This document shows, piece after piece, positions 19,171 through 34,100 of a stretch of 64,000 nt of DNA. How positions within the stretch are numbered: the first letter of the stretch is position 1; each line of letters starts with the position of its first letter. Below the pieces are notes generated by a model. The model was not told where the DNA came from. It worked only from the letters and a program-made list of their open reading frames with translations, and searched no databases. A program made the translations under genes and the position numbers. Where the stretch lies: positions 124,001 through 188,000 of the forward strand of contig NZ_JYFC01000003.1 of NCBI RefSeq assembly GCF_000938265.1, written 5' to 3'. Source of the DNA: Agreia bicolorata (GTDB taxonomy: Bacteria > Actinomycetota > Actinomycetes > Actinomycetales > Microbacteriaceae).

Positions 19171-20406
19171 CTAGGCCTTGAACGACTCCAGCGTGGCCGC
19201 GAGCTCGTCGACCAGCCAGTCGAGGTCTTCCTTCGAGATCACGATCGGCGGCGCGAGGCGAATGGTCGACCCGTGCGTGTCCTTCGCCAGAATTCCGCGG
19301 GCCAGCAGCGCCTCGCAGACCTCGCGTCCCGATGCGAGCATGGGGTCGATATCGATGCCCGCCCAGAGGCCGGCTCCACGAACCTCGACCACGCCGAGAC
19401 CCACGAGCGTGAGCAGGCGCGAGTGCAGGTGCGCCCCCAGCTCGGCCGCCCGGGCCTGATACTCGCCGGTGGCCAGCAGGTCGACCACGGCGTGGCCTAC
19501 AGCGGCGGCCAGCGGGTTACCCCCGAAGGTCGACCCGTGCTCACCGGGGTTCAGCACCCCGAGAATGTCGGCGTTGCCGACCACGGCCGACACCGGAACG
19601 ATTCCGCCGCCCAGCGCCTTGCCCAGAAGATAGAGATCGGGAACGACGCCCACGAGATCGCACGCGAACGTGGCTCCCGTGCGGCCAAGCCCCGACTGGA
19701 TCTCGTCGGCGATCATGAGCACGTTCTGCGCCGTGCACAGTTCACGCAGCGCGGGCAGGTACGACGCGGGCGGAACCACGATTCCCGCCTCGCCCTGGAT
19801 CGGCTCGACCAGCACGGCGACCGTGTTCTCATCGATGGCGTTCGCGATCGCATCCACGTCGCCGTACGGCACACTGCGGAACCCGGGCGTGAACGGGCCG
19901 AAGCCGTCGCGGGCCGTCGCGTCGTCGGAGAAGCTGATGATCGAGATCGTGCGGCCGTGGAAGTTGCCGTCCATGACCACGATGTTCGCCTTCTCGGGAG
20001 CGACACCCTTGACCCGGTAGCCCCAGGCGCGGGCGACCTTGATGCCCGACTCCACAGCTTCGGCACCGGTGTTCATGGGCAGCACCATGTCTTTGCCCGC
20101 GAGCTCGGCCAGCGCGGCGACGAACGGGCCGAGGCGGTCGGAGTGGAACGCCCGCGACGTGAGCGTGATGCGGTCGAGCTGCGCCTTGGCGGCGTTGATC
20201 AGCACGGGGTTCGAGTGGCCGAAATTGACCGCCGAATACGCGGCGAGGCAATCGAGGTAGCGACGCCCGTCGATGTCGGTGACCCACGCTCCGTCGCCCG
20301 ATTCCACGACCACCTGAAGCGGGTGATAGTTGTGCGCGGCATGCTCTTCGACGAGCCGGATGGCCGCCGCCTGAGTGGCCGACAACTCCACGGCCACCGC
20401 ACTCAT
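19171..20406 (-). CDS. rocD: Ornithine aminotransferase
   Basis: 411 residues, a full-length class-III PLP aminotransferase. PLP contacts visible are the GAEAVE loop (115-120), D234 in IADEIQSGLGRTG and the Schiff-base lysine K263 in LLGKALGGG; the NFGHSNP and HGSTFGGNP segments match ornithine--oxo-acid transaminases. It transfers the delta-amino group of ornithine to 2-oxoglutarate, giving glutamate semialdehyde/P5C, which the PutA enzyme encoded at 37511-40999 can oxidise to glutamate. The start overlaps the upstream guanidino-hydrolase stop as ATGA, which fixes ATG 20406. Confidence 0.93.
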   Translation of the reverse strand: MSAVAVELSATQAAAIRLVEEHAAHNYHPLQVVVESGDGAWVTDIDGRRYLDCLAAYSAVNFGHSNPVLINAAKAQLDRITLTSRAFHSDRLGPFVAALAELAGKDMVLPMNTGAEAVESGIKVARAWGYRVKGVAPEKANIVVMDGNFHGRTISIISFSDDATARDGFGPFTPGFRSVPYGDVDAIANAIDENTVAVLVEPIQGEAGIVVPPASYLPALRELCTAQNVLMIADEIQSGLGRTGATFACDLVGVVPDLYLLGKALGGGIVPVSAVVGNADILGVLNPGEHGSTFGGNPLAAAVGHAVVDLLATGEYQARAAELGAHLHSRLLTLVGLGVVEVRGAGLWAGIDIDPMLASGREVCEALLARGILAKDTHGSTIRLAPPIVISKEDLDWLVDELAATLESFKA

Positions 20407-21263
20407 CGCAGTTCCAGCGTGCAGCACTTGACGCCGCCACCACCGAGCAGCAGCTCGGAGAGGTCGACCTTGATCGGGTTGTAGCCGCGCTCGCGCAGCT
20501 GCTTCTCGAAGCCCACCGCGCGGTTCGCGATGACCACGTTGTAGCCGTCGGAGATGGAGTTGAGGCCGAGGATCGCGCCGTCTTCTTCGCTGACGAGGAT
20601 CGCGTCGGGGAAGCGCTTCTCGAGCTCGAGACGGCTTGCCGTGTCGAACGCGCTCGGCAGGTAGGCGATGTTCGCGGTCTTGTCACCCGTCAGCGGATCG
20701 AGCACGGAGATCGCCGTGTCGAGGTGGTAGAAACGCGGATCGACGAGGGTGAGTGTGACGACCTCGCGGCCGTAGATCTCTCCGAGCTCCTCGTGGCTGT
20801 TCGACGCGCTGCGGAAGCCGGTGCCCGCAAGGATCACGTCGCCGACGAGAAGGAAATCGCCCTCACCCTCGTTCGTGTTGGCAGGCTCGGCTACCTCGTA
20901 GCCGTGTTCGCGGAACCACTCCATGAACGCGGGGCCCTCGGGCTGGCGCTCGGGGTGCGTGAACAGGGCGCCATAGGCCACGTTATCGATGATGAATCCG
21001 CCGTTAGCCGTGTAGACCATGTCGGGCAGGCCCGGTACCTGGTCGATCAGTTCGACGGTGTGGCCGAGCGAGAGGTAGGTCTCGTAGAGGGTGTTCCACT
21101 GGGCCACGGCAAGCGACGTGTCGGTGGGAACCGCCGGGTCCATCCAGGGGTTGATGCGGTACGCGACCGTGAAGTGGTCGGGACGGCACATGAGGTAGTG
21201 CCGCTTGGTGGCGACGCGAGCGGGAGCCGCAGACTGGCCTGAGGTTTCGAGAGTGGACGTCAT
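20403..21263 (-). CDS. Guanidino-group hydrolase of the amidinotransferase/DDAH superfamily (possible arginine dihydrolase)
   Basis: 286 residues with the pentein fold: E134-D136 in NEGEGDF, H180 in RFYHLDT and cysteines 280/281 in GGGGVKCC form the expected catalytic set. Databases usually call such proteins dimethylargininase. Here the substrate-binding loop reads MVYTANGG, with Asn where dimethylarginases have an acidic residue; an Asn at the corresponding site is, from memory, the feature of cyanobacterial ArgZ/AgrE that convert arginine directly to ornithine. The coupled rocD gene would then use that ornithine. Start ATG 21263 has GGAGGA eight bases upstream. The Lrp gene is divergent. 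The same gene order (AsnC regulator, this family, rocD) is found in Mycobacterium tuberculosis. Confidence 0.85.
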   Translation of the reverse strand: MTSTLETSGQSAAPARVATKRHYLMCRPDHFTVAYRINPWMDPAVPTDTSLAVAQWNTLYETYLSLGHTVELIDQVPGLPDMVYTANGGFIIDNVAYGALFTHPERQPEGPAFMEWFREHGYEVAEPANTNEGEGDFLLVGDVILAGTGFRSASNSHEELGEIYGREVVTLTLVDPRFYHLDTAISVLDPLTGDKTANIAYLPSAFDTASRLELEKRFPDAILVSEEDGAILGLNSISDGYNVVIANRAVGFEKQLRERGYNPIKVDLSELLLGGGGVKCCTLELR

Positions 21264-21319
21264 GGGGAGTTCCTCCGAGGATTGTCACGGGAGGCGGACT
21301 GAGTCCAGTGGCCCAGGCC

Positions 21320-21364
21320 TGTTGCACAGCCGGGCACGCCTGCAACAAGTCTTGCACGCAGCAA
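21320..21364. promoter_or_regulatory. Candidate Lrp/AsnC operators
   Basis: In the region between the divergent arginine operon and the Lrp-type gene, TGTTGCA (21320-21326) and TGCAACA (21341-21347) form a perfect 7-bp inverted repeat with a 14-base spacer, and TTGC(ACGCA)GCAA follows at 21352-21364. Repeated TTGC/GCAA half-sites at about 24-25-bp centre spacing fit the multimeric binding of Lrp proteins. Inference from position and symmetry. Confidence 0.45.
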
Positions 21365-21443
21365 TCCACGCGTGACGATCGTTCGACGCCGAACTCGTGC
21401 GCGAAGTGCCCGCCGCTGCAAGAATTCCGCGTATCCTCGCTGT

Positions 21444-21872
21444 ATGGACGCCCTTGACTACAAGATTCTCGACCTGCTCAAGCTCAATTCCCGCTCGGGC
21501 TACGGCGACATCGGGCAGGTCATCGGACTGTCGGCCTCGGCGGTCAAGCGACGCATCGACAGGCTCGTCGGCAGCGGCATCATCCGCGGATTCACCATCC
21601 AGCTCGATCCCACCCTCGACGGCACCGTGACCGAGGCCTACGTCGAGCTGTTCTGCCGCGGAACCGTCGCGCCTGCCGAGCTCAAACGCATCCTCTCGTC
21701 TGTGCCGGAGGTCGTCGATGCGGGAACCGTGACGGGCAGCGCCGACGCCATCGTGCACATGCGCTCGCGCGACATCCCGAGCCTCGAGCTGGCCCTCGAG
21801 AAGGTGCGGATCGCGCCGAACGTCGACCACACCCGCAGTGCCATCGTGCTCTCGAACCTGATCCGCAGGTAG
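21444..21872 (+). CDS. Lrp/AsnC-family transcriptional regulator
   Basis: 142 residues: an N-terminal winged helix-turn-helix (about 1-50, LDYKILDLLKLNSRSGYGDIG...SASAVKRRIDRLVGSGII) and a C-terminal RAM-type ligand-binding domain (about 62-135). ATG 21444 opens directly with the family's MDxLDxKIL start; the longer open frame upstream has no such homology. Divergent orientation to the arginine hydrolase-rocD pair makes it the likely activator of that operon, with arginine or ornithine as plausible effector. Confidence 0.92.
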   Translation: MDALDYKILDLLKLNSRSGYGDIGQVIGLSASAVKRRIDRLVGSGIIRGFTIQLDPTLDGTVTEAYVELFCRGTVAPAELKRILSSVPEVVDAGTVTGSADAIVHMRSRDIPSLELALEKVRIAPNVDHTRSAIVLSNLIRR

Positions 21873-21891
21873 CGCTGGCAGACTTCGGATC

Positions 21892-22662
21892 GTGCATGCC
21901 CCAGACAATCTGTCCGACTCCGACCTTCGGGCCGAATTCACACGTTTCATGATGTCGTACAAATTCGGCATCGACGAGATCATGACGAAGATCAATATCC
22001 TGCGCGAAGAACTCAACCACGTGCACGACTACAACCCCATCGAGCACGTGAACTCGAGACTGAAGTCGCCCGAATCGATCCTCGAGAAGGTGCAGCGCAA
22101 GGGGCTCGAGATCGACACCGCGGTGATCCGCGAGCACATCCACGACATCGCCGGCATCCGCATCACCTGCAGCTTTCTGAGCGACATCTACAAGATCCGC
22201 GACATGCTCGCGAGCCAGGTCGACCTCACGGTAATCGCCGAGCGCGACTACGTCGCAGCCCCCAAGGCCAACGGCTACACGAGCCTGCACCTCATCGTGT
22301 CGATTCCCGTCTTTATGTCAGACCGGGTGGAGCAGGTGCCCGTCGAGATCCAGATCCGCACCATCGCCATGGACTTCTGGGCCAGCCTCGAGCACAAGAT
22401 CTACTACAAGTACAACCGCGAGGTTCCGGCAACCCTGCTCGATGAGCTCAAAGACGCGGCGGCCACGGCGAACCGCCTCGACCTGAAGATGCAGAAGCTG
22501 CACACGCAGGTTCGGGAGTTGAGCGCGAGCGCAGACGTGCCGGCCGCTTCCGACGACGGCGCGGTGCCTTTCGGCGATCTCGAACGACTCATCGTGCCCA
22601 AGGCCCTGCTCGAGTCACTTGCAGAGCGATCTCCCGGCCCGAACGAGGCATCCGATGCCTGA
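21892..22662 (+). CDS. Small alarmone synthetase, RelQ/YwaC-like GTP pyrophosphokinase
   Basis: 256 residues containing a single RelA/SpoT synthetase domain (about 30-190) with no hydrolase, TGS or ACT domain. Conserved elements include DIAGIRITC, the GYTSLHLIV segment (G-loop region) and the EIQIRT catalytic strand; a helical tail follows. Such enzymes transfer pyrophosphate from ATP to GTP or GDP to make (p)ppGpp, and are often induced by cell-envelope stress. The GTG start at 21892 lies 19 bases after the Lrp stop with only weak ribosome-site character, and the 3' end overlaps the GntR gene by eight bases, suggesting co-expression. Confidence 0.9.
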   Translation: MHAPDNLSDSDLRAEFTRFMMSYKFGIDEIMTKINILREELNHVHDYNPIEHVNSRLKSPESILEKVQRKGLEIDTAVIREHIHDIAGIRITCSFLSDIYKIRDMLASQVDLTVIAERDYVAAPKANGYTSLHLIVSIPVFMSDRVEQVPVEIQIRTIAMDFWASLEHKIYYKYNREVPATLLDELKDAAATANRLDLKMQKLHTQVRELSASADVPAASDDGAVPFGDLERLIVPKALLESLAERSPGPNEASDA

Positions 22663-23032
22663 GGCGACTTTTCCCGGCGACTGGTCGGTGGATGCCGAGG
22701 GCTCGACTCCCCCGTTCGAACAGCTGCGGGCGCGCGTTCTCGAACAGGTCACCTCGGGCGAACTGCCCGCGGGCTTCCGACTTCCACCCGTGCGCTCCCT
22801 CGCCGAGCAGCTGGGGCTCGCGGCGAACACCGTGGCCCGCGCCTACAAGGAACTCGAGGCCGACGGCATCGTCGAGACTCACGGCCGGGGTGGAACTCTC
22901 GTCTCAGCGCAGGGCGACGCTGCCCACCGGGCAGCACAGCACGCGGCGACGGAGTACGCGGCGAAGACCCGCTCGCTGGGCCTCCCCTCCGACCAGGCTC
23001 TTGCTCTGGTCGAGGCAGCCCTCCGCGCCTGA
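22655..23032 (+). CDS. GntR-family transcriptional regulator, YtrA-like short form
   Basis: 125 residues. A GntR winged helix fills about 20-85 (PPFEQLRARVLEQVTSGELPAGFRLPPVRSLAEQLG...), followed by a ~40-residue helical tail instead of an effector domain, as in the YtrA subgroup. The start ATG 22655 is inside the end of the alarmone-synthetase gene (stop 22660-22662), so the two are translated together. YtrA-type regulators usually control transporter or cell-envelope genes; no such target is adjacent. Confidence 0.88.
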   Translation: MPEATFPGDWSVDAEGSTPPFEQLRARVLEQVTSGELPAGFRLPPVRSLAEQLGLAANTVARAYKELEADGIVETHGRGGTLVSAQGDAAHRAAQHAATEYAAKTRSLGLPSDQALALVEAALRA

Positions 23033-23036
23033 AGGC

Positions 23037-23059
23037 CCGCTCCCTGAGCCTGTCGAAGG
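23037..23059 (+). repeat. Dispersed 23-bp repeat (copy 1)
   Basis: The 23 bases here, containing CCCTGAGCCTGTCGAAGG, recur exactly at 39594-39616 inside the putA gene. This copy lies five bases after the GntR stop codon. Motifs of this kind are scattered in many bacterial genomes; function unknown. Confidence 0.7.
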
Positions 23060-23086
23060 AGGATCGCAGACGTGTGCGCGCAGAGC

Positions 23087-23115
23087 GGCTCCTCGTCGCA
23101 TAACGACGAGGAGCC
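23087..23115. terminator. Bidirectional terminator-like hairpin
   Basis: GGCTCCTCGTCG (23087-23098) and CGACGAGGAGCC (23104-23115) form a perfect 12-bp stem with a five-base loop, located between the convergent GntR and solute-binding-protein genes. No U-tract follows on either strand, as is usual in high-GC actinobacteria. Confidence 0.65.
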
Positions 23116-23157
23116 ACTCAGGCTGCACACGTTTCGCGATCAGCGGCCGGCGGAGGC

Positions 23158-24507
23158 TCAGCCGGCCGCCGTGTTGTACGCCGCGATCTGGTCCGCTGCC
23201 TTCGACTCGGCGTCCTTCATCGTGGAGGTAACGTCGGCCCCCTCGACGATCTGGTTGAACGCGCCGATGACCGTGGCGCGCACCGTCGGAAAGGCGCCCG
23301 TGCGGCATCCGGCTGCGGCCTGGCTGGCCGGCGTGTTCGCGAGCTGGTCAGCCATCGCCGCGACGTTCGGATCGGAAAGAGACTGCTTGCCGGCCGTCGT
23401 GTCGGCGGCTCCCGTGTTCGATGCAAGGTAGCCCGTGGCGCTCGACCACTCGGCCTGCACATCGGCCGAGTGCAGGTAGGTGAGGAACTCGTATGCAGCC
23501 TGCTGCTGCGCCTCGGAGTGCCCGTCGCCCGAGATCCACAGAGCGTTGCCACCGACCACCACACCGGCGTCTTTCGAGTTCGAGGTCTTCGGGAAGGCAG
23601 AAACCTTCGAGGCGGTCTTGCTGGGGTCGGCGGTCGTGTATGCGCCCGATGAGGTGAGCATGATGCCCACCTTGTTGCTGGCGAACGCCGAGACCATGGC
23701 GCTGTTGTCTGTGCCGGGGTTCAACGCGGTTCCGTCGGAGAACAGTTTCTGCAGCTGACCCATGAACGCCACCTGGGTCGGGGTCGTCAGGTCGAGTCCC
23801 GTCACCTTGTCGGAACCGCGGCCGTTCTCGGGAGTGCAGAAGTTCTCCCCACCCGAGGCGGACATCTCCTCCAGCATCCACGAATCGCTCATGTTCATGG
23901 TCATGCCGTACGCGCCCGTCGAGGCGTGGATCTTCTCGGCCCAGTCAGCCACCTCGGCGAGTGTCGTCGGCGGGGTATCGGGGTTGAGCCCGGCCTGCGT
24001 GACCAGCGAACGGTTCAGGTACAGCACCGGCTGCGACACTGAGAACGGCATGGCCGCGAGGCCACCGGATGCTGCCGCGTAGTACGAGCTGACGATCGGG
24101 GGAAAGCTGTCGGCGTCGAACGATGAGTCCTTGTCGGTGAACGTCGACAGGGGCACGGTCTTCTTCGAGTCGACCATAAAGCCTGTCGAGATGTCGTTCA
24201 TCATCAGCACGTCGGGCGTCGAGTTTGACTGCACCGCGGCCGTGTACTTGGTCTGCACATCGGCGTAGCTGCCCTGGAACGAGGCGTCGACCGTGATCTT
24301 GCCCGCCTCCTGCGCGTTGAACTGCGAGACGAGGGTGTCGAGCTCGGTGGCCGCGGGTCCGGTCATCGCGTGCCAGAACGTGAGGGTGACAGGGCCGGAT
24401 GCGGTGGCCGGGTCGGCGTCGGAGCCGGGCGCCGCGCATCCGGACAGGGCGAAGAGCATCGCTGCACCGGCGGTCGCCGCGAGGAGGGTGCGTTTACGTA
24501 CGGACAT
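23158..24507 (-). CDS. Extracellular solute-binding protein family 1, UgpB-like lipoprotein
   Basis: 449 residues. Lipoprotein signal with lipobox LSGC (C24), then the family-1 binding fold beginning VTLTFWHAMTGPAATELDTLV, a strand typical of glycerol-3-phosphate-binding UgpB and related proteins; the GENFCTPENG insertion is also UgpB-like. It should capture a solute outside the membrane for the two permeases encoded just upstream on the same transcript. No ATPase gene is nearby, so a shared MsiK/UgpC-type ATPase elsewhere is expected. Start ATG 24507 has AAGGAA about 10 bases upstream. Context (phosphatase, 2H phosphoesterase) favours a phosphorylated solute. Confidence 0.9.
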   Translation of the reverse strand: MSVRKRTLLAATAGAAMLFALSGCAAPGSDADPATASGPVTLTFWHAMTGPAATELDTLVSQFNAQEAGKITVDASFQGSYADVQTKYTAAVQSNSTPDVLMMNDISTGFMVDSKKTVPLSTFTDKDSSFDADSFPPIVSSYYAAASGGLAAMPFSVSQPVLYLNRSLVTQAGLNPDTPPTTLAEVADWAEKIHASTGAYGMTMNMSDSWMLEEMSASGGENFCTPENGRGSDKVTGLDLTTPTQVAFMGQLQKLFSDGTALNPGTDNSAMVSAFASNKVGIMLTSSGAYTTADPSKTASKVSAFPKTSNSKDAGVVVGGNALWISGDGHSEAQQQAAYEFLTYLHSADVQAEWSSATGYLASNTGAADTTAGKQSLSDPNVAAMADQLANTPASQAAAGCRTGAFPTVRATVIGAFNQIVEGADVTSTMKDAESKAADQIAAYNTAAG

Positions 24508-24534
24508 AGCTTTCGAATTCCTTCTGTTCGGGTT

Positions 24535-25380
24535 CTATTTGAGGGCACCGGCGGTGATGCCGCCGGCGAGAAAGCGCTGTGCGAGGAGCACAACGATGAG
24601 CACGGGGAGTGTGACCATGGCGGCGCCCGCCAGCACGACGCCGATGTCGGTGGCCTCGGCGCTGGAGAGCTGGGCAATGCCCACCTGCACGGTTCGGTTG
24701 TCGGGCGAGTTGGTGACGAGCAGCGGCCAGAAGAAGCCGTTCCAGGCCGCCGTCGCGCTGACCAGGGTCACCGAGATCAGAGTCGGTCGAACGACGGGCA
24801 ACAGCATTGATCGGATGAAGCGAAAGTGCCCGGCTCCGTCGAGCAGCGCGGCGTCTCGCAGCTCGCCCGGAAAACTCAGGAACGCCTGCCGGAACAGGAA
24901 GATGCTGAGCGCCGAGGCGACGAAGGGCAGGAAGACGGCGGGCACGGTGTCGATGAGGTGCCACGACGAGATCGTGAGGTAGTTCGCGATAAGGGTGGTC
25001 TCGGCGGGGATCATCATGCTCGAGAGCAGAACCAGAAAGAGCGCTCGGGTGCCGCGCAGTCGACAGAAGACCAGAGCGTAGGCTGTGGCGATGCCGATCG
25101 CGACCTGCAGGAGCGTCTGGCAGATCGTGACCACGACGCTATTGCCGAACTGCCGGCCGAGCGGAATGACCTGGGTAGCTCGAATCACGTTGTCGAGCGT
25201 GAGGTGGATGGGCACGAGCCCTTCCAGACCCTGGTCGAGCCAGGCAGTCGGCGTCAGCGCCCCCTCGAAGATGTAGTACAGCGGAAAGCAGACGACGATC
25301 ACCGCTGCGACGAGCCAGACATAGAGCAGCGCGCTGCGCATCCGGGCCCGCATGGACGAGCGTCTTTTCGGCGAGCGCAT
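24535..25380 (-). CDS. Carbohydrate/glycerophosphodiester ABC transporter permease (UgpE-like)
   Basis: 281 residues with six membrane helices and the EAA motif around ELRDAALLDGAGHFRFIRSMLLPVVRP, ending GGITAGALK as MalG/UgpE proteins do. Its ATG overlaps the upstream permease stop as TGATG at 25380, fixing the start; a much longer open frame that continues through the upstream gene is not coding. It forms the channel with the UgpA-like partner. Confidence 0.92.
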   Translation of the reverse strand: MRSPKRRSSMRARMRSALLYVWLVAAVIVVCFPLYYIFEGALTPTAWLDQGLEGLVPIHLTLDNVIRATQVIPLGRQFGNSVVVTICQTLLQVAIGIATAYALVFCRLRGTRALFLVLLSSMMIPAETTLIANYLTISSWHLIDTVPAVFLPFVASALSIFLFRQAFLSFPGELRDAALLDGAGHFRFIRSMLLPVVRPTLISVTLVSATAAWNGFFWPLLVTNSPDNRTVQVGIAQLSSAEATDIGVVLAGAAMVTLPVLIVVLLAQRFLAGGITAGALK

Positions 25381-26324
25381 CAGTAGTTCACCCGCTTCTC
25401 GAGCACGCCGAACTGCACGAGCGACAGCGCGAGCACCAGCAGAAAGAGCACCACGCCGAGCGCCGCGGCGAGGCCGAAGTTGGCGCTGCCCGCACCGAAC
25501 GCCGACTGATAGATGTTGTAGACGAGCGTTGTGGTGGAGTTCGCCGGGCCACCGCCCGTGAGAATCTGGATCTGGCCGAAGGTGGTGAGCCCCTCGACCG
25601 CCCCGGTGACAACGATGAAGAACAGCGTGGGGGTCACGAGCGGCAGCGAGATCGACCAGAGGGTTCGAAAGGGTCCGGCTCCGTCGAGGTGTGCGGCCTC
25701 GACGACGTCGTGATCGATGGCACCGAAGGCGCCGAGCATCAACAGCACGGTGAAGCCGATCGAGCCCCACACCGTGACGACGATCACGCTCGCGAACGCC
25801 CACTGCGTGCTGGTGAGAAAAGGAATGGCTGAGCCGCCGAAACGCGTGATCACCGAGTTGACGAGTCCGTTGCCCGGCGCGAGCATGGCCGCGAAGGCGA
25901 CGGATGCCGCCGAGACGCTGACGACCATCGGCGACGTCAACAGCGCCCGGAACACGGGAATACCGCGCAGCTTCGTTGTGAGCGGGATGGTGATGAGCAG
26001 CCCGAGAACGATGCGCCCGGCCACCACGGCGAGACAGAACGCCCCGGTGCGCAGCATGGTGGCGCCGAACTGCGGATCGGTGAAGATCGTCACGAAGTTC
26101 TTGGCTCCGACGAAGCCCGCCGCCTGCCCGAAGATGTCGGTTCCCTGCGTGCTGAGCCAGATGACCTTGCCGAGCGGATAGAACACGAACACGGCGAACG
26201 CAGCAAAGGCGGGCGCAAGGAGCGCGACCCCGACGCGTCGGTCGGAACGAAGCCAGGACTGCGCCGACGGGGCACGGCGCTGACCCACGGCGACGCGCCG
26301 CTCTGCAGTTGTGGAGGCTGACAT
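25380..26324 (-). CDS. ABC transporter permease (UgpA-like), first gene of the LacI-controlled operon
   Basis: 314 residues: cytoplasmic N-terminus (1-30), six membrane helices, and the EAA loop DHDVVEAAHLDGAGPFRTLWSISLPLVTPT. It is the UgpA/MalF-type half of the importer. ATG 26324 has AAAGGA a few bases upstream, and the leader contains a perfect GGGAACGTTCCC operator. The operon order is permease, permease, binding protein, without an ATPase. Confidence 0.92.
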   Translation of the reverse strand: MSASTTAERRVAVGQRRAPSAQSWLRSDRRVGVALLAPAFAAFAVFVFYPLGKVIWLSTQGTDIFGQAAGFVGAKNFVTIFTDPQFGATMLRTGAFCLAVVAGRIVLGLLITIPLTTKLRGIPVFRALLTSPMVVSVSAASVAFAAMLAPGNGLVNSVITRFGGSAIPFLTSTQWAFASVIVVTVWGSIGFTVLLMLGAFGAIDHDVVEAAHLDGAGPFRTLWSISLPLVTPTLFFIVVTGAVEGLTTFGQIQILTGGGPANSTTTLVYNIYQSAFGAGSANFGLAAALGVVLFLLVLALSLVQFGVLEKRVNY

Positions 26325-26339
26325 TCAGCATCCTTTCGG

Positions 26340-26375
26340 ATAATAGGGAACGTTCCCTTTTTTGGAACGGGTCAA
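26340..26375 (-). promoter_or_regulatory. Operator GGGAACGTTCCC and promoter of the UgpA-like operon
   Basis: The 12-bp palindrome GGGAACGTTCCC (26346-26357) is identical to one at 28083-28094 upstream of the 2H phosphoesterase gene. On the minus strand a -10-like TATTAT (26340-26345) abuts it and TTCCAA (26362-26367) lies 16 bases upstream; TTGACC at 26370-26375 is an alternative -35. The operator would thus sit between promoter boxes, fitting repression by the nearby LacI protein. Confidence 0.7.
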
Positions 26376-26490
26376 CTCTCCGACACCCTCGGTAGTGCGG
26401 TCAAGCGGTGCGAGCATCCGGTTGCCGAGCGTTCACGCGGTGTTAAGGAAGGCCTGAATCAATCCCTACTGACCACGAACAGGAGCACCC

Positions 26491-27324
26491 ATGACACCCG
26501 ACATGACGTACAACCCGAACGAGCTTGTTGACCTCGCCGAGACTGCAGCTCGAACCGCCGCCCCCGCCCTTGTTGCGGCCTTCCGCTCCGACATGGACAT
26601 CTCGTTCAAGCGCGACGCGCACGACGTGGTGACCAAGTACGACCGCGAGGCCGAAAGGGTCATCAGCGAGGTATTGCAGGCCGGAGCCCCCGGATCACAG
26701 GTGCTCGGCGAAGAGACGGGCAGCTCGGGCGAGGCCCGACTGCGCTGGATCATCGACCCCATCGACGGCACGGCGAACTTCGCCCGCGGCCTGGCCTACT
26801 GGTGCGTCTCGATCGCGGCAGAGGTCGACGGCGAGGTGGTCGCGGGCGTCGTGCTCGACCCCATGGCAGACCATCTCTTCGCTGCGGGCGACGGCGAGGC
26901 CACCCTCGACGGCAAGACCATGCGATCGGCATCGGCCGACGACGACCGCTCGACGCTCCTCACGAGCTTTCCCAACCAGCACGACGTCGATCTGCTCGGC
27001 GACGCAGCCTTCGAGCTACTCGCGCAGATAACGAGCACCTACCAGCACCACCACAGCACCGGCAGCGGAGCGCTCAACCTGGTGCACGTCGCCGCGGGCT
27101 GGTCTGACGCAACAATGGGCTTCGATACGGGCGCTTGGGATGTCGCGGCCGGCGCCCACATTCTGCGTCGCGCGGGCGGACGCTACGCAGGATTCCGCGA
27201 AGGCGCCGCCGTCGACCACCCACAGCAGAGCCTCGACTACGTGGCCATGGGCGCGGGCGGCGACCACGCAGCCCTCATCGCCCGGGTGCGCGAGCTGTCG
27301 TCGAGCCGGCGCCCGGCGGCCTAG
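26491..27324 (+). CDS. Inositol monophosphatase family protein
   Basis: 277 residues with the metal- and phosphate-binding motifs of the family: GEET (73-76), DPIDGTANF (89-97) and the C-terminal WD217 in GAWDVAAG. Members remove phosphate from inositol phosphates, histidinol phosphate, PAP or similar small molecules; actinobacterial paralogues differ in substrate. It has a good GGAG six bases before ATG 26491. It diverges from the UgpA-like operon, sharing the operator-bearing intergenic region, and faces the 2H phosphoesterase gene. The context suggests it finishes dephosphorylation of an imported phosphate ester; this is inference. Confidence 0.9.
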   Translation: MTPDMTYNPNELVDLAETAARTAAPALVAAFRSDMDISFKRDAHDVVTKYDREAERVISEVLQAGAPGSQVLGEETGSSGEARLRWIIDPIDGTANFARGLAYWCVSIAAEVDGEVVAGVVLDPMADHLFAAGDGEATLDGKTMRSASADDDRSTLLTSFPNQHDVDLLGDAAFELLAQITSTYQHHHSTGSGALNLVHVAAGWSDATMGFDTGAWDVAAGAHILRRAGGRYAGFREGAAVDHPQQSLDYVAMGAGGDHAALIARVRELSSSRRPAA

Positions 27325-27333
27325 CGAAAGACT

Positions 27334-27378
27334 GGATGCCGTGGGCCGCCGCGCGCGCGGCCTCGGCCCGCGGCATCC
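27334..27378. terminator. Bidirectional terminator-like hairpin
   Basis: Arms 27334-27348 and 27364-27378 pair over 15 bases with one mismatch (left GGATGCCG..., right ...CGGCATCC), loop 15 bases, between the convergent phosphatase and 2H phosphoesterase genes. No U-tract. Confidence 0.55.
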
Positions 27379-27388
27379 GGACCCTGGG

Positions 27389-28045
27389 TCACGCGCCGGC
27401 CAGCACCCAGCTGTGCACGTGCTCCCAGGTCATCGTCTGCCACCAGCGACCCGACCAGTCGGGGCTGGCCGTGCGGTACATCACCACGGAGCGGCCGGCG
27501 AACGAGGCGGGCACGGGTACGTCGAGCTCCCTGATGAACTCGCCGACCTCCTCGTGCAGATCAGGGCGCACGTAGAGGTCGTGCGAGGCGAGCGAGAGGT
27601 GGCCGCGAAACAGCTCGGGCACGAAGTCGTTCGGCAGCGGGTTGTTCATGGGGCGCCTGAGCGGCTCGACCGCGGCATCGATGTCTCGGGCGAGGCTCAC
27701 CAGTTCGTCGTTCACCGTTCCGTCGGCGTTCTGGCTCACGTCGTAGACGTAGCCGATTCCCTGAGACCGGATGCCCGCGTTATGCACCTCGAACGCCTCG
27801 CGATTCGCGAGCAGCGCGGTCACGGCCTCGATGACCTCGTTCTCGTTGAAGCCGAAGGGCTGGCTGCCGACGAGCGTGGCGTGCGGGGGGAACGCGCCCG
27901 CCGAGAGCAGCCCGTATTGCGCGCGCAGCTGGTCGGTGACGACGGTCACGGCACGGCAGGTCTTCGCGTCGGGGCGCAGGTAGATGCCATAGCGGTAGGG
28001 ATCGCTGTCGTCGCGGGGCAGCTTATGGGCGATGTGGTCGTTCAC
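27389..28045 (-). CDS. 2H phosphoesterase superfamily protein (2'-5' RNA ligase / cyclic phosphodiesterase fold)
   Basis: 218 residues carrying both H-x-(T/S) signatures of the superfamily: H55-A-T57 in FPPHATLVG and H149-L-S151 in FRGHLSLASHD. Members hydrolyse or form 2',3'- or 2',5'-phosphodiesters and nucleotide or sugar cyclic phosphates. The GTG start (28045) is preceded at 28081-28096 by the same palindromic operator as the UgpA-like operon, so it belongs to the same LacI regulon. With an importer and an inositol-phosphatase-like enzyme nearby, a cyclic or glyceryl phosphodiester such as inositol 1,2-cyclic phosphate is an attractive substrate, unproven. An RNA-processing role is the alternative. 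Confidence 0.85.
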   Translation of the reverse strand: MNDHIAHKLPRDDSDPYRYGIYLRPDAKTCRAVTVVTDQLRAQYGLLSAGAFPPHATLVGSQPFGFNENEVIEAVTALLANREAFEVHNAGIRSQGIGYVYDVSQNADGTVNDELVSLARDIDAAVEPLRRPMNNPLPNDFVPELFRGHLSLASHDLYVRPDLHEEVGEFIRELDVPVPASFAGRSVVMYRTASPDWSGRWWQTMTWEHVHSWVLAGA

Positions 28046-28074
28046 ACGATCTCGCTTTCTAGGGTGAGTGTCAT
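28042..28074 (-). other. Possible 10-codon leader ORF coupled to the 2H phosphoesterase gene
   Basis: Between operator and gene, ATG at 28074 opens a 10-codon frame (MTLTLESEIV) whose stop overlaps the GTG start of the phosphoesterase as GTGA. No ribosome-binding site is visible, but the main GTG also has only a weak one, so coupling could be how it is translated. May be coincidence. Confidence 0.25.
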
Positions 28075-28080
28075 TCAGAG

Positions 28081-28096
28081 TAGGGAACGTTCCCTA
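28081..28096. promoter_or_regulatory. LacI-type operator TAGGGAACGTTCCCTA
   Basis: A perfect 16-bp palindrome 36 bases upstream of the 2H phosphoesterase start; its 12-bp core equals the site at 26346-26357. The even-length, CG-centred symmetry is typical of LacI-family operators, and a LacI gene ends 72 bases away. Confidence 0.75.
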
Positions 28097-28167
28097 TTCT
28101 CGGACACAATCACAACGGGAGGAGTGAACGCGCAGGCGTCCAGTGGGTGAACGAACGGTGACGAGGG

Positions 28168-29238
28168 CTAGACGGCCGCGGCGGTTCGCCCGGGGATCAG
28201 CTCGCCGTCGATCGAGCGATGCCTCGCTCCCTGGGAGAGCCCCTCGATCTGATCGACCACATCGTCGACGGAGAGCTGCCCGATGAGCGTCAGCGGCTGG
28301 CGCCACGAGGTGAATCCGAGAATGCTCGATGTGAAGGGCTTCACCCCGTCGTAGCCGGTAACGGAGATGTCATTCGGGGCGGTGAGGCCCCGCCTCTGCA
28401 GCGATTCGAGAACGGCGAGCGCCCACGAGTCGCTCGGCGCCATCAACGCGGTGACGCCGCCGACGTCGAGGATCGCCTGCACGATACTGTCAGTGCCCTC
28501 GATCTCGAGCCCGTAGTCCTCGCAGCGGAACGGCAGAACGTCGACACCGGCGTCGCGCAGGTACTGCACCATGGCCTCGGTTCTCGCCGACTGAGTGAGC
28601 GAAGAGGCGGCCGTATGCGTCATCACAGCCACCCGGCGGTGGCCGAGTCCGACGACGTGCTCTGCCATTCCACGCCCACCGCCGACCTCGTCGCAGTAGA
28701 TGCTGCTCACCGAGGGGTCCGCCTCTGGGCGACCCGCGATGACGGTCGGGATGCGCCGGGCAAAGGGAATGATGTCTTCGACGGGCAGAGCGCCGCTGCA
28801 GACGATCAACCCCTCGACGCGCAGCGACACGAGTGTCTCGAGCGCCCGACGCTCCTCCTCGATCGGGAACGAGCCGGATCCGGTGGCCGTGACCGCGCGA
28901 TATCCCCTGGCCGATGCCTGCTCTTGGAACGCCGTCAGCAGGTGTCCATAGAACGGCGTCGCGGCATCCCGCACGAAGACGCCCAGAGTGTGGGTGCGGT
29001 GCGCCGACATGCCGCGGGCGTTCGCGTTGGCCACATAGCCGATCGCCTCCGCCGCCGCCTTGACCTTCATGACCGTGCGCGCGGCCACCCCTGGCGCTCC
29101 CGACAAGGCCCTTGAGACAACCGACTTCGAAACGCCGGCAGCTGCCGCGACGTCGTGAATGGTGGGCACCGAACCGGGGTGGCGCTCGCCATGCGCGCGA
29201 CCCACGGGCTCGTTGTCTTCGGGAGTCAGCTCGCGCAC
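28168..29238 (-). CDS. LacI-family transcriptional regulator
   Basis: 356 residues. The N-terminal HTH is at about 26-46 (TIHDVAAAAGVSKSVVSRALSG) with the hinge helix just after (YVANANARGMSAHRT), followed by the periplasmic-binding-protein-like effector domain. It is co-directional with and upstream of the 2H phosphoesterase gene and is the obvious binder of the two GGGAACGTTCCC sites. Effector unknown, presumably the imported solute or a breakdown product. GTG 29238 is taken as the start; a later GTG near residue 24 would also leave a complete DNA-binding domain. Confidence 0.9.
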   Translation of the reverse strand: MRELTPEDNEPVGRAHGERHPGSVPTIHDVAAAAGVSKSVVSRALSGAPGVAARTVMKVKAAAEAIGYVANANARGMSAHRTHTLGVFVRDAATPFYGHLLTAFQEQASARGYRAVTATGSGSFPIEEERRALETLVSLRVEGLIVCSGALPVEDIIPFARRIPTVIAGRPEADPSVSSIYCDEVGGGRGMAEHVVGLGHRRVAVMTHTAASSLTQSARTEAMVQYLRDAGVDVLPFRCEDYGLEIEGTDSIVQAILDVGGVTALMAPSDSWALAVLESLQRRGLTAPNDISVTGYDGVKPFTSSILGFTSWRQPLTLIGQLSVDDVVDQIEGLSQGARHRSIDGELIPGRTAAAV

Positions 29239-29247
29239 GCTCCTACG

Positions 29248-29568
29248 CTATAGGGCGCCACGCGCCAGCTGCTCCATGACGGCGCCTTCAATACCCTCCC
29301 TGTGGGCGCCGTAGCGATCCACCAGTAGAGCGGTCATGCCCACGGCGCGCGCCCCATCGATGTCGTGCAGAGGATTGTCTCCGACGAACAGGCACTCCCC
29401 CGGCTCCACGCCCAGACTTGCTGCCAGCATGCGAAAGGCCGCCCCATCTGGCTTCTGCACGCCGATCCGCTCCGAGATGCAGATGTGGTCGAAGACCTCG
29501 AGCAGCCCCGTAAAGCGCAGCTTGTCGAGGCCACCGCACGATTCAATCCCCAAAAGACGCCGCCCGGG
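29248..29568 (-). pseudogene. Truncated HAD-superfamily hydrolase
   Basis: The frame ending at 29248 encodes the second half of a YjjG/phosphoglycolate-phosphatase-like HAD enzyme: GLLEVFDHICISERIGVQKPD (motif III lysine) and FVGDNPLHDIDGARAVGM (motif IV acidic pair). The first half, with the DxDxT nucleophile motif and cap, is missing; upstream codons to 29700 show no such similarity, and the divergent esterase gene begins at 29692. It is therefore most likely a remnant, inactive as a phosphatase. Its last base is nine bases from the LacI start on the same strand. Confidence 0.65.
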
Positions 29569-29691
29569 CTGAGAATCGTCCCAGAAATGGCCCGATCTTT
29601 GGGCACTTGATGCTGCTTCGGTCTCAAGACTGATCGACCCGCAACGGAAAGACAGCCGCAGAAGTGAGAAGGTGTCATGAGGAGGCGCACA

Positions 29692-31011
29692 GTGCTGCAT
29701 TGGTTCTACAACATCAACATCATCGACGGACCGCTCCCTATCGTTCTCTGGTCATTGGCCGCTGTGGGCGTTCTTCTGCTTCTTATTCGCCGGCCAACGC
29801 GGCGATGGCTGTTGGTCGCCGTCGGCAGCATGCTGGGCGGTGCCGCGCTGGGTCTTGCCCTTGTGATCGTCGTCGACATGACCGGCGTTGTCGGTGTGCC
29901 CTTGCCCACACCGACGGCCCCGTGGCTCGCAGCAATGTTCGCAGCCATCGGTCTCGCGATCGCGAGCTTCACCAAATCGTCACGCCGCCGAAAAGTCATC
30001 GCCGTGGGCCTGGTCGTTTTCTCTCTACTGTCTGCCGGCCTCGGCATCAACGCCGGGTTCGGGATCGACCGCACTATCGGGTCGGCTTTGGGTGTATCAA
30101 CTCAGGAGGCGATCGAAGGACTCGACGGCCCCAAGCCACTCGATACGGCCACCACCCCCGCCGCGCCTCTCTACGCCAGCTGGGAGCCTCCGGCCGACAT
30201 GCCCACCACGGGCAAGACGGGCCTTCTCACAGGCTCCAACGCCATCACGTCGAGCGCCGGGTTCGCGCCGCGCGAAGCCTCGATCTACCTTCCGCCGGCG
30301 GCTCAGGTCGCGAATGCTCCCGCCCTTCCGCTGGTGGTCATGATGATGGGTCAACCCGGAAATCCCCAGCCAGACTTCATCGCCGCAGCACTCGACGAGG
30401 TGGCAGCGAGGAACAAGGGGCTCGCGCCCATTGTGATCATCGCCGATCAACTCGGAGACCCCGACACCGACCCGGTCTGCGCCGACTCGGCCAGATACGG
30501 TGGAGTCGACACCTATTTCAATAAAGACATCGTCGCCTACGCGAAAAAGACGCTGCATATTCTGCAGGACCCCCAGTACTGGACGATCGCGGGGTACTCG
30601 AACGGTGGAGCCTGTGCATTCACCTGGGCGGCCAAATACCCTGAAATCTGGGGCAACATCATCGACATCTCGGGCAACGAATGGCCCGGAGACGAGAACG
30701 AAGCAGCGGCCATCGCCGACGGATACGGCGGAGACGCGAATGCCTTCGCCGCGGCCAAGCCCGCATCGTGGCTCGAGAAGAACAAGGGAAAGTTCGCGGC
30801 GCACATGGCGGTCTTCACCGCGGGCGAGAACGACCCGGAGTACACGCAATTCGCCGCAAGCAACGCGGCCCTGGCCGAGACGGCCGGTTTCACGACCAAG
30901 AACTATGTCGTGCCGGGCGCCGACCACGTTGTGACTGCCCTGCGGGGCGGGCTTCCCTATGCCTTCACCGAGCTCTACCCACGGCTCGGACTCGCGGCGC
31001 CCACCCCCTGA
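29692..31011 (+). CDS. Membrane-anchored alpha/beta hydrolase (esterase-D/mycolyltransferase-like fold)
   Basis: 439 residues. Four hydrophobic segments occupy the first ~125 residues, then a ~300-residue external esterase-family domain with nucleophile S303 in AGYSNGGA, likely acid D381 (GENDPEY) and H412 (GADHVV). This layout, with a multi-span N-terminus, is common in actinobacterial putative esterases related to the antigen-85 group. GTG 29692 is preferred since AGGAGG lies six bases upstream; an in-frame ATG at 29677 exists. It probably acts on the cell surface on an ester; substrate unknown. Confidence 0.8.
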   Translation: MLHWFYNINIIDGPLPIVLWSLAAVGVLLLLIRRPTRRWLLVAVGSMLGGAALGLALVIVVDMTGVVGVPLPTPTAPWLAAMFAAIGLAIASFTKSSRRRKVIAVGLVVFSLLSAGLGINAGFGIDRTIGSALGVSTQEAIEGLDGPKPLDTATTPAAPLYASWEPPADMPTTGKTGLLTGSNAITSSAGFAPREASIYLPPAAQVANAPALPLVVMMMGQPGNPQPDFIAAALDEVAARNKGLAPIVIIADQLGDPDTDPVCADSARYGGVDTYFNKDIVAYAKKTLHILQDPQYWTIAGYSNGGACAFTWAAKYPEIWGNIIDISGNEWPGDENEAAAIADGYGGDANAFAAAKPASWLEKNKGKFAAHMAVFTAGENDPEYTQFAASNAALAETAGFTTKNYVVPGADHVVTALRGGLPYAFTELYPRLGLAAPTP

Positions 31012-31107
31012 TCCGATCTCCCCGGGCCGGTTTTGGCCGAGCACGGCTCGGCGGCGGCACTCCCCCATCGTCAGCGGCGACACTGGATACAAGGGGAGAT
31101 AGGCACC

Positions 31108-34100
31108 ATGACCAACAACACCGGCGAGCCAGTCAGGCGCGCACCGAGACACGCGGCACCGATCATCGACGGCGACGAGCCCACACCCGACGAGCCCCTC
31201 GCTGACGCTCCCGTCGAAGACGCCCCGAATCAGGACGCCCCGCCGGTCGGCGAGCCCGTGCACGACGCCGCAATCGACCCCGAAGACGCCGCCACCCTCA
31301 GTCGCCTGGAACGCAACGACGACTCCCCCGCCCGCGTGCGCAACTGGAAGCGCGACCTGCTCGATCTCACCCTGCGCAATCCTCTGCTCAACATGCCGCG
31401 CACCCAGAAGGTGCTCGACCTCGTTGTGCCGCCGGGCCTGCTCCCCTCGATCGACGACGCCGTGCACGCGGGCCGCAAGCTGCGCCTCTCGAGCGGCCTC
31501 GACGCATCCGGCCGCAAACGGGTCGACGGCATCGACTCGCACACACCCCTCGCGCACGACGAGCTGAGCGCCGTCTTCCGAACCTCGCGCACGCTCTTTT
31601 CGCAACTCGACGACGAGAAGCACCGCAAGCAGCTGCGGGCCATGAAGCGCGAGGCCGAGTCGCTCGAGCAGGAGACCGGCAGCAATTACCTGTACCTCAC
31701 GCTCGGCACGCTGATTCACACACGACCGGATGGGCGCGAGGCCCGCGCTCCCCTGTTCCTGCTGCCGGTTCGGCTCACCGGCGGCCTCTCGTTCACCCCC
31801 TACTTCCTCGCCGCCGAGGGCGACGATCTGGCGACGCCGAACCTGTGCCTTCTGCAGTGGTTCGAGACCACGCAGGGGCTCGATCTCAGCGAGCTGCGCG
31901 AGCCGGCGATCGACGACTCTGGGCTGGCGATCGAGGCGGTATTCGACGGAATCCGCCGGCAGCTCGCCGAAGCCGAGCTGCCCTACCGACTCGAGGAGTC
32001 GGTGAGCCTCGCCATCCTGCGCTTCTCGACCTTTCAGATCTGGAAGGACCTCGAGCGCAACTGGCGTTCACTGCTCTCGAACCCGGTGGTCAGGCACCTG
32101 GTCGAGCGGCCGGGAGAGACGTTCATCGAGCCGGCGGGAAAGGAACGTCCCGAGATCGATGAGGCCGGCCTGAGGCTGCCGATCGCGGCAGACGGCTCGC
32201 AGATGGCGGCCGTGGTGCGCGCCACGAGCGGCCAGTCGTTCGTGCTCGAGGGCCCTCCCGGCACGGGCAAGTCGCAGACCATCACGAACCTCATCGCCCA
32301 CGCGCTCACCGAGGGCAAGACCGTGCTCTTCGTGGCCGAGAAACAGGCAGCCCTCGAGGTCGTGAAGCGTCGGCTCGACGCCATTGGTCTCGGCGCGTTC
32401 AGCCTCGAACTGCACGGCGCAAAGCAGTCGATGAACACGATTCGCGAGCAGCTGCGCGAGTCGCTGCGTCTGCGCGTACCCACCGATCCGCACGCCTGGG
32501 CGCTGGCCGACACCCGGTTGCGCTCGGCGATCGCCGAACTCGAGCGGCATCCGACACGGGTGCACTCACCCAACGCACTCGGTTACACGGTGTGGTCGGC
32601 CTACGACGCACTGGCGACCCTCGGCGAGGGGCCTACCGCCGCTGTCCCCGCGACCTGGCTCACCACGACTCCCGCCGAGAGCCCCACGATTCTCACCCGC
32701 GACTTCCGCGATGCCGCGCAGCGCTTCGGGCTGCGCGCTGGGCACCCGTGGCTCATTGCCGGAGCGACGGATCCGGCCCAGCTGCAGGTTGCACCCGTCA
32801 CCGATTCGTTGCGCGACCTCGCCGCCGTGCGCCCCCGCCTCGACGAGCTCTCGCCCGAGGCACGCCTCGCCCTCGGAGACCTTCGTCCAGCGACAGAACT
32901 GCCCGTCGCATCCCGTCTGCTCGAGGCCCGCTCGCGCGGTCTGCTGCCAGAGACCGACGCGCTGGCGACCATCGACCGCTCGAGCTGGCGCGAGGCATCC
33001 GACGCGCTGCGTGCCGGTCTTGCCGACTACCTCGAGCGTCACGCCGCCGTGCTCGCGAACTCCTCGGCCGCAGCGATCGAGGCGCCCAAGCTCGACGAGT
33101 GGGCCGAGCGATCGGCTGCCCTCGACGCCGCCTGGTTCCTGCCCGAGCTGCGTCGCCGCTCGATCCGCGCAGGTCTACGACCGCTGCTTCGCGTCGGGTT
33201 CGAGCCGAGCGGCAAGGCGGTCACGCCACTGCTCGTCGCGCTTCAGGCCGCCCGATCGGATGCGCAGGAGCTGCAGCGCCAGGCCGCTGCTCTGGCGGGC
33301 CTCGTGCTTCCAGCTGGATGGCAGCCCTACGCACCCGACGCGAAGAACGTTCTCGACACGGCCGTGCGCACCTCTCTCGGCTCGGTCTGGCTGGCGAAGC
33401 GCACCCCGCGCGCCTGGGGTTGGATCTCGAACGCGCGCGAATCCGGCGAGGCCGACACTGCGGTGCGCGACGGCGCCATTGTTCGCGACATCGACGCCAG
33501 CTGGAATCGCTGGCTCGCCGCTATCGGAGCTACCGGGCTTACCGTTCGACAGTGGGCCCACGGTCGCGACTGGGTCTCGGCCTGGGCCACCGACGAGGTC
33601 GCCTGGCTGATCGACGTGCGCGCAACGGGTCTTCTGCAGCTGCAGCGCTTCGCCGAGACCAGGCGCCAGCTCGAGCACCTGCGCGAACTGGGTCTCGCCG
33701 GCTTCAGCACGCAGTTGGCGACCGGCCAGATCGAGGCGGCCGACGCATCCGAGGCCCTTCTGCGGGGTCTTGCCATCGCGTCGCTCGACGAGCGACTGGC
33801 GGCCATGCAGCTCGACAGCTTCGACGGCGACGCCCAAGACAGGAGCGTCTCCGCCTATCGCGACCAGGGCGCCCTGGTGCGCGAACAGCTGCGCAGCGAG
33901 CTTGCCTCGGAACTGCTCGCAGCCCGCCCCTTCGACGCCGACGAGCTGCGCGGCGAAGTCGCCGAGCTCGCCCGCCAGATCGAGCGCAAGCGCGGTGGGC
34001 TCGCCTTCCGCGAGGTGGCCCGCCGCTATCCGCGGGCGCTCACGTCGATCGTGCCCGTGTTCCTCATGAGCCCGGGCTCGGTGGCACACTTCCTCGATCC

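Follow-up and report, generated by a model that had tools for sequence, protein, structure and literature searches.

What purpose is served by a UgpB-type importer, an inositol-monophosphatase-family (IMPase) phosphatase and a 2H phosphoesterase that are encoded side by side next to a LacI-family repressor? The question is raised by positions 23158-29238 of a 64-kb window (the whole stretch of DNA analysed) on contig NZ_JYFC01000003.1 of Agreia bicolorata, whose genome assembly comprises 3,920,719 bases. An earlier note, made from the sequence alone, had described six genes and two identical palindromes here, and both were confirmed at the coordinates given below. We propose, with a probability of roughly 0.6, that the locus is a LacI-repressed, substrate-induced regulon for the uptake and use of small water-soluble phosphodiesters. 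Glycerophosphodiesters or related, possibly cyclic, polyol phosphates would be the most likely substrates, and some plant and soil bacteria probably use this gene set to import phosphate-linked molecules, for example lipid head groups, and then to strip off the phosphate. In effect, the locus would be a Ugp system in which the 2H protein takes the place of UgpQ, a glycerophosphodiester phosphodiesterase (GDPD). The proposal draws on the genes and their families, a predicted fold, the operators and their conservation, and the residues of a binding pocket.

The two palindromes define the regulon. Operator 1 (26346-26357) lies in the gap between the UgpA-like permease gene and the divergent IMPase gene, 21 bp before the start codon of the former but 133 bp before that of the latter, a distance at which control of the IMPase gene is no more than a possibility; operator 2 (28083-28094) lies 37 bp before the start codon of the 2H gene. 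Both are exact copies of the 12-mer GGGAACGTTCCC, which occurs twice in the 3.92-Mb genome, both times at this locus, while about 0.46 copies per genome are expected from base composition and 0.013 copies of the 14-mer AGGGAACGTTCCCT. Within the window, 11 matches with at most two mismatches to the 12-mer were found, a number not attained in any of 100 shuffles; the expected number is 3.15. The exact-copy search of the assembly thus agrees with the earlier note in describing one LacI-type regulon with two sites, and the idea of a site scattered genome-wide before unrelated genes was rejected. Across related loci the spacing between operator and start codon is conserved, 19-43 bp for the 2H gene (12 loci measured, of which L028 and L029 have two operators each) and 19-21 bp for ugpA (10 loci). 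This position fits repression by a blocked promoter; a scan for sigma-70-type promoters recognised no site. Operator 1 was also flagged by a terminator scan as a 5-pair stem, but 1.4 such matches are expected by chance and the sequence is conserved as an operator, and the terminator was set aside. The operator core by itself is not new, because the operator consensus TGGGAACGTTCCCA described for CebR2, a LacI-family protein of Streptomyces scabiei, contains the entire 12-bp core (PMC9953190). CebR2 governs a cello-oligosaccharide importer, and in its consensus the base flanking the core is T, not A (PMC9953190). Elsewhere in the window, three relatives of the operator with two mismatches lie within 430 bp (41663, 41748 and 42083; region 41663-42094) and may be sites of another LacI-type regulator.

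Operators and genes have been kept together in Microbacteriaceae. A scan of named genomes returned 12 loci from Agreia, a Microbacteriaceae metagenome-assembled genome (two contigs), Microbacterium, Frondihabitans and Curtobacterium. LacI, 2H, IMPase, UgpA, UgpE and the solute-binding protein (SBP) are all present in nine of the ten loci with about 20 kb of DNA, the Frondihabitans locus lacking only the IMPase, and the two remaining loci are short contigs that hold five and four of the six genes. The 12-mer stands before ugpA in 12/12 loci and before the 2H gene in 11/12, the twelfth contig beginning too near the 2H gene. Since the flanking genes vary among the genera, we regard the six-gene set as a unit. 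Curtobacterium has an additional LacI-type regulator gene between those for 2H and IMPase. Among 299 genomes of the family, 11 have a close 2H gene (at least 69% identity) and 12 have the 14-mer, namely all of these 11 plus G278, whose copy was set aside, as it belongs to a longer inverted repeat and has no gene of the set in its vicinity. A Fisher test of this co-occurrence gives 3e-19, a value that is descriptive only, the genomes being related. Outside the family, a conjugative Paenarthrobacter plasmid carries together a LacI gene and genes for 2H (42% identity), UgpA (49%), UgpE (47%) and SBP (37%); genes for MgtC and a Gfo/Idh/MocA oxidoreductase lie nearby, and there is no IMPase. Both ugpA and the 2H gene are preceded by TAGGGAACGTTCCCTA there, and the 162 kb contain no further exact 12-mer; this is the strongest evidence for the importance of both operators. 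The repressor gene itself (28168-29238, reverse strand; Pfam LacI 44.8 bits, Peripla_BP_3 78.1 bits) adjoins the 2H gene in the 10 full-length named loci, in six genomes of the genus g35 and on the Paenarthrobacter plasmid. From this co-conservation, its product is presumed to bind both operators.

What the importer carries is suggested by its binding protein. The importer operon on the reverse strand begins with ugpA (25380-26324), followed by genes for the UgpE-like permease (24535-25377) and the SBP (23158-24507), a lipoprotein with the lipobox LSGC by eye. Both permeases match Pfam BPD_transp_1, and their best NCBIfam models are UgpA and UgpE, respectively, each below its cut-off. UgpB is the sole NCBIfam match of the SBP (183.5 bits), and E. 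coli UgpB is its best PDB match (158 bits). In UgpB and in the binders of glycerophosphocholine (GPC) and of the dinucleotide U3G, the phosphate is described as held by two Tyr and two Ser that glucose binders do not have (PMC12718374). In our alignment the window SBP has this phosphate-coordinating Tyr/Ser/Ser/Tyr together with the Gly, Asp and Arg of the pocket. Its acidic pocket residue is Asp, like that of the GPC binder, and one Trp of the two-Trp clamp of UgpB is kept, its equivalence to W169 or W172 varying with the alignment. All four phosphate residues are present in 15 of 16 SBPs, comprising 11/11 of the window family, that of genome G024 and three from g35, and the Arg that holds the glycerol hydroxyls is, in these alignments, kept in the window family and G024 and not in g35. 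A further alignment, from which four near-duplicate rows were dropped, found all four in Paenarthrobacter, L. brevis, Thermus, both copies of G247, G203 and Thioclava, two of four in R. etli and none in Rhizobium BT04 and Deinococcus. The protein, UgpB-like according to the earlier note, therefore resembles UgpB rather than sugar binders at the pocket, as judged from the PDB match and these residues, and the SBP may well work like UgpB though not filed as UgpB. The importer probably draws on a UgpC-type ATPase whose gene is at another place in the genome (477 bits, cut-off 432).

In the genus g35 a second importer points the same way. All six genomes have LacI and 2H genes with the 12-mer before the latter, and all six have the 12-mer also before a different importer at a distant locus, 27 bp before ugpA (4 loci). 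For the SBP of this importer, taken from G109, structures of M. tuberculosis UgpB are close matches (277 bits), and the SBPs of the other five genomes are 91-98% identical to that of G109. M. tuberculosis UgpB, described as a GPC binder (PMC12718374), is the nearest solved relative of the g35 SBP, whereas the window SBP is nearer to E. coli UgpB. In two of the six genomes (G109 and G259) the importer operon runs on into a GDPD gene whose start overlaps the stop codon of the SBP gene; no GDPD was found at this importer in the other four. Genome G203, which has neither the operator nor a close 2H gene, also has a g35-type importer followed by a GDPD. Because g35 places a GPC-type importer under the same operator, the regulon appears to be tied to glycerophosphodiester uptake through a second, sequence-distinct importer.

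The 2H gene occupies 27389-28045 on the reverse strand. Its product scores 22.7 bits against Pfam PF13563, below the 27-bit cut-off, and its assignment therefore rests on motifs and a predicted fold. The motifs HATL and HLSL are present, and both His are invariant in 14/14 sequences, while the Ser of the second motif is replaced by Gly or Thr in the two copies of genome G115. An AlphaFold2 model supports a 2H fold, which does not reveal the substrate; a structural search with this model placed LigT, Arabidopsis CPDase and YjcG on top; archaeal RNA-ligase-like proteins, AKAP18 and Usb1 ranked next. No sequence-profile link was found from this family to solved 2H structures. With no signal peptide apparent by eye, the protein is presumably cytosolic. 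The family is uncommon, with a homologue in 15 of the 299 family genomes and, when only the best seven candidates per genome were scored, a match in 2 of 396 genomes of the phylum, one of them the source genome and the other match weak. For many 2H enzymes the physiological function is described as not known (PMC5283653). The 2H enzymes of the RcsF type that replace PhnP in C-P lyase clusters, as described, are proposed openers of a small cyclic phosphate (PMC3840354); they likewise belong to a catabolic operon, but in a phosphonate pathway, and we liken them by description.

The association of 2H protein and importer recurs with a second family. Window-type SBPs (E<=1e-40, with the best five candidates per genome scored) occur in 7 of 299 family genomes at eight places, and each place has a 2H gene either directly beside the SBP or a few genes off, which in six of them is of the window 2H family. 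The other two are the SBP copies of G247, each of which overlaps a following gene that matches PF08975 (DUF1868) with 66.7 or 76.1 bits (cut-off 21). DUF1868 is connected to the solved Atu0111 (2FSQ) and may be considered a 2H family on the basis of its Pfam name, 2H-phosphodiest, and its two His motifs; by profile it is only weakly related to the window 2H family (probability 16.6%). In a plasmid collection, 13 records had a DUF1868 homologue, of which 10 were inspected. The plasmids of R. etli 8C-3, Thioclava (p4) and Rhizobium SSA_523, the last an unannotated record whose genes were read by tblastn, encode in this order a UgpB-type SBP, two permeases, UgpC, DUF1868 and IMPase, and the Thioclava set additionally has a GDPD. 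Vibrio THAF191d has an ABC importer of another type about 1.9 kb from DUF1868 on the opposite strand, V. nigripulchritudo an ATPase gene just before DUF1868 and, 1.4 kb past it on the opposite strand, an SBP gene, and a Streptomyces plasmid an MFS gene, LacI, two DUF1868 genes and MgtC. MgtC/SapB genes thus stand beside LacI and 2H genes of different families on the Paenarthrobacter (L076:7005-7721) and Streptomyces (L084:5609-6313) plasmids. Among the 396 phylum genomes DUF1868 had no match, but no control matched either, so its absence there is not established; the name DUF1868 was not mentioned in the literature searched. Since the profiles of the two 2H families have little in common and the IMPases are just 28-29% identical, the triad of importer, 2H and IMPase seems to have formed more than once, although a common ancestral triad may instead have undergone later replacement. 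A more ambitious version of our proposal is possible, though we hold it with clearly less confidence: a dedicated bacterial pathway whose substrates would be glycerophosphodiesters with a vicinal diol or else small cyclic phosphates of polyols, for example glycerol 1,2-cyclic or inositol 1,2-cyclic phosphate, and to which 2H proteins of two families would have been recruited separately, joining UgpB-type importers and, in both lineages, an IMPase.

How might the parts work together? We infer the substrate and the reactions from the protein families. LacI would sit on the two identical operators near the start codons of ugpA and 2H. The UgpB-type lipoprotein and the permeases, served by the UgpC-type ATPase from elsewhere, would import the intact diester, which the cytosolic 2H protein would open or cut by way of a neighbouring hydroxyl to give a phosphomonoester; the IMPase-family enzyme would then free phosphate and polyol. 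A 2H enzyme that uses a vicinal hydroxyl would yield glycerol 2-phosphate, an inositol phosphate or a sugar 2-phosphate, all of them apt for an IMPase. The phosphomonoester intermediate would probably release LacI, a guess that we make because the inducer of AccR is described as such a monoester (PMC4526662).

The earlier note knew of no described pathway with this gene set, which was too strong, given two close functional precedents and the parallel set on alphaproteobacterial plasmids. In E. coli, ugpBAECQ serves the uptake of glycerol phosphate and glycerophosphodiesters, and the GDPD UgpQ is encoded with the importer. The window locus resembles it in the UgpB/A/E-type importer, the co-encoded phosphodiester-cleaving enzyme and the pocket residues in common; it differs in having a 2H protein rather than a GDPD, a LacI neighbour, an IMPase and no ATPase gene in the operon. 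The genome has three GDPD matches, none of them at the window locus. The agrocinopine acc genes of Agrobacterium are the second precedent, with an AccF that we take to be GDPD-like and an AccG that we take to be IMPase-like. They are described as encoding an ABC importer, the cytosolic phosphodiesterase AccF, the phosphatase AccG and a dedicated repressor, AccR, whose inducer is the phosphomonoester product, a sugar-2-phosphate (PMC4526662). Their resemblance to the window locus is functional and is drawn from that description, not from the acc sequences. As far as the literature was searched, what is new is the regulon together with the repeated association of 2H proteins and UgpB-type import; we do not claim priority.

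The earlier note had proposed inositol 1,2-cyclic phosphate or glycerophosphoinositol, which the 2H protein would turn into inositol phosphate and the phosphatase into myo-inositol. The phosphatase (26491-27324, forward strand) belongs to the IMPase family (Pfam Inositol_P, 166.2 bits, cut-off 27; best PDB matches bacterial IMPase/SuhB; motifs GEET, DPIDGT and WD by eye), the vicinal hydroxyls of inositol suit 2H chemistry, the genera of the named relatives are often plant-associated, and the oxidoreductase near the Paenarthrobacter set would be in keeping with inositol. However, IMPase-family enzymes are broad, the window protein meets no equivalog cut-off, the six genes of the window locus include no inositol dehydrogenase, and several relatives have no IMPase. 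Phosphodiesters are supported as the substrate class that is imported and dephosphorylated, and an inositol compound would be one candidate among them; we consider an inositol-specific pathway unlikely, although it fares best among the alternatives. The IMPase is not an obligatory partner, because it is missing beside importer and 2H in several relatives. In 17 genomes examined, window-type IMPase (at least 88% identity) was found in four, all of the same genus and with the cluster, and the other matches, including those of two same-genus genomes without the cluster, were distant paralogues of at most 39% identity. Pairing of a phosphodiesterase with an IMPase is nevertheless seen again in the source genome, where about 7.5 kb past the end of the window (G000:C14) a 507-residue GDPD-IMPase fusion (L090:8501-10024) sits with genes for a LacI-type protein, an SBP, a permease and an ATPase, and by eye a second permease. 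Domains fused in one protein frequently act in sequence, and for this reason the fusion supports the pairing at the window locus. GDPD and IMPase matches lie close together in G077, G238, G192, G004 and the six g35 genomes as well.

The same fusion, whose operon encodes a different type of importer, could also be cited for diesters that link sugars or sugar alcohols, such as agrocinopine-like compounds or cell-wall fragments, with a sugar phosphate monoester as the LacI inducer. Genome G115 (L035:5519-11987) would suit such substrates, as it has LacI and HAD phosphatase genes divergent from an SBP-2H-UgpA-UgpE-2H operon and an SBP nearest to 6LCE, presumably an arabinobiose binder, so that 2H, a sugar-type SBP and a HAD phosphatase are combined; of the relatives of the operator with one mismatch, that at 7395 is in the gap and that at 7252 falls within the 5' end of the HAD open reading frame. 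The precedent of AccA, AccF and AccG with a sugar-2-phosphate inducer is also in favour (PMC4526662). However, window-type SBPs have kept the pocket of UgpB, with its Arg and Gly for the glycerol hydroxyls, and we think sugar diesters somewhat less probable still than inositol compounds.

Further down we place ribonucleotides, that is, imported RNA fragments or nucleoside 2',3'-cyclic phosphates that the 2H protein would convert to 2'-nucleotides and the IMPase would dephosphorylate. The known activities of 2H enzymes are described as mainly directed at 2',3'-cyclic phosphates and RNA ends (PMC5283653), and a UgpB relative from Thermus is described as binding U3G (PMC12718374). Thermus homologues of the window SBP, not established as the U3G binder, adjoin a SurE nucleotidase gene. 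These UgpB-type importers stand beside SurE and TIM-barrel genes (L077:7317-8051; L078:7331-8065), perhaps a nucleotide-type version of the same scheme. At the window locus, however, there is neither a nucleoside hydrolase nor a ribokinase among the six genes, and in g35 a GPC-type importer is under the operator, with a GDPD in 2/6; we therefore doubt this substrate. That the 2H protein is an RNA-repair or tRNA-processing enzyme which merely shares the operator, as the name of the nearest Pfam family, 2'-5' RNA ligase superfamily, might suggest, is very improbable, given that the 2H gene retains an operator of its own in five named genera and g35, at identities as low as 42%, that a second 2H family is found in the corresponding position next to this type of SBP, and that the family is as uncommon as 15/299 and 2/396 genomes.

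Several observations weigh against a phosphodiester regulon as we propose it. The score of the SBP is far below the UgpB equivalog cut-off of 411, and the sixteenth SBP, the sugar-type protein of G115, is without the phosphate signature and is paired with two 2H genes. The 2H model is of modest quality (pLDDT 62, pTM 0.66), and distant 2H homologues in G209 and G203 have no importer of this type nearby. DUF1868 is also found in operons with other ABC importers (Rhizobium BT04, CIAT894 and Deinococcus) and, in Rhizobium NLR16a, without an importer near. GDPD and 2H coexist in g35 (2/6) and Thioclava, and thus the 2H protein is not simply a GDPD substitute there. The IMPase is below all equivalog cut-offs (119.3 versus 332 for inositol-1-monophosphatase, 125.2 versus 275 for HisN); importer and 2H stand without it in Frondihabitans, g35, G024 and the Paenarthrobacter locus, and the short pieces of G247 showed no IMPase either. 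The glycerol 3-phosphate released by a GDPD requires no phosphatase, and therefore the IMPase step must concern another monoester. Finally, the operator core is also that of the LacI regulator of cello-oligosaccharide import (PMC9953190).

Some neighbouring features deserve mention. A HAD-type open reading frame (29248-29700, reverse strand) directly upstream of LacI encodes the C-terminal part of the domain only, while an Agreia relative encodes a 224-residue HAD protein (L021:6989-7663). We rejected a HAD phosphatase as a member of the set, as the window has this C-terminal piece only and L019 and Frondihabitans carry other genes upstream of LacI (SDR, TetR). An Rfam scan of 20000-32000 gave no match at the gathering score. 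In G024, which has a UgpA-UgpE-SBP-2H-LacI set, no strong palindrome was found in two stretches inspected; about 2 kb from this set, L033:14422-16752 encodes a 776-residue protein with a signal-peptide-like hydrophobic start and a partial GDPD domain, and regular repeats at L033:5875-6930 are CRISPR-array-like by eye.

In conclusion, the regulon, its operator, the binding pocket and the parallel in another phylum suggest a concrete role for 2H proteins, the cytosolic cleavage of imported phosphodiesters. If this is true, 2H phosphoesterases would gain a metabolic role in nutrient use outside RNA, and functions would be predicted for DUF1868 proteins. For plant- and soil-associated bacteria such as those encoding this gene set, the finding would name a route for the use of organic phosphorus derived from lipids or cells.

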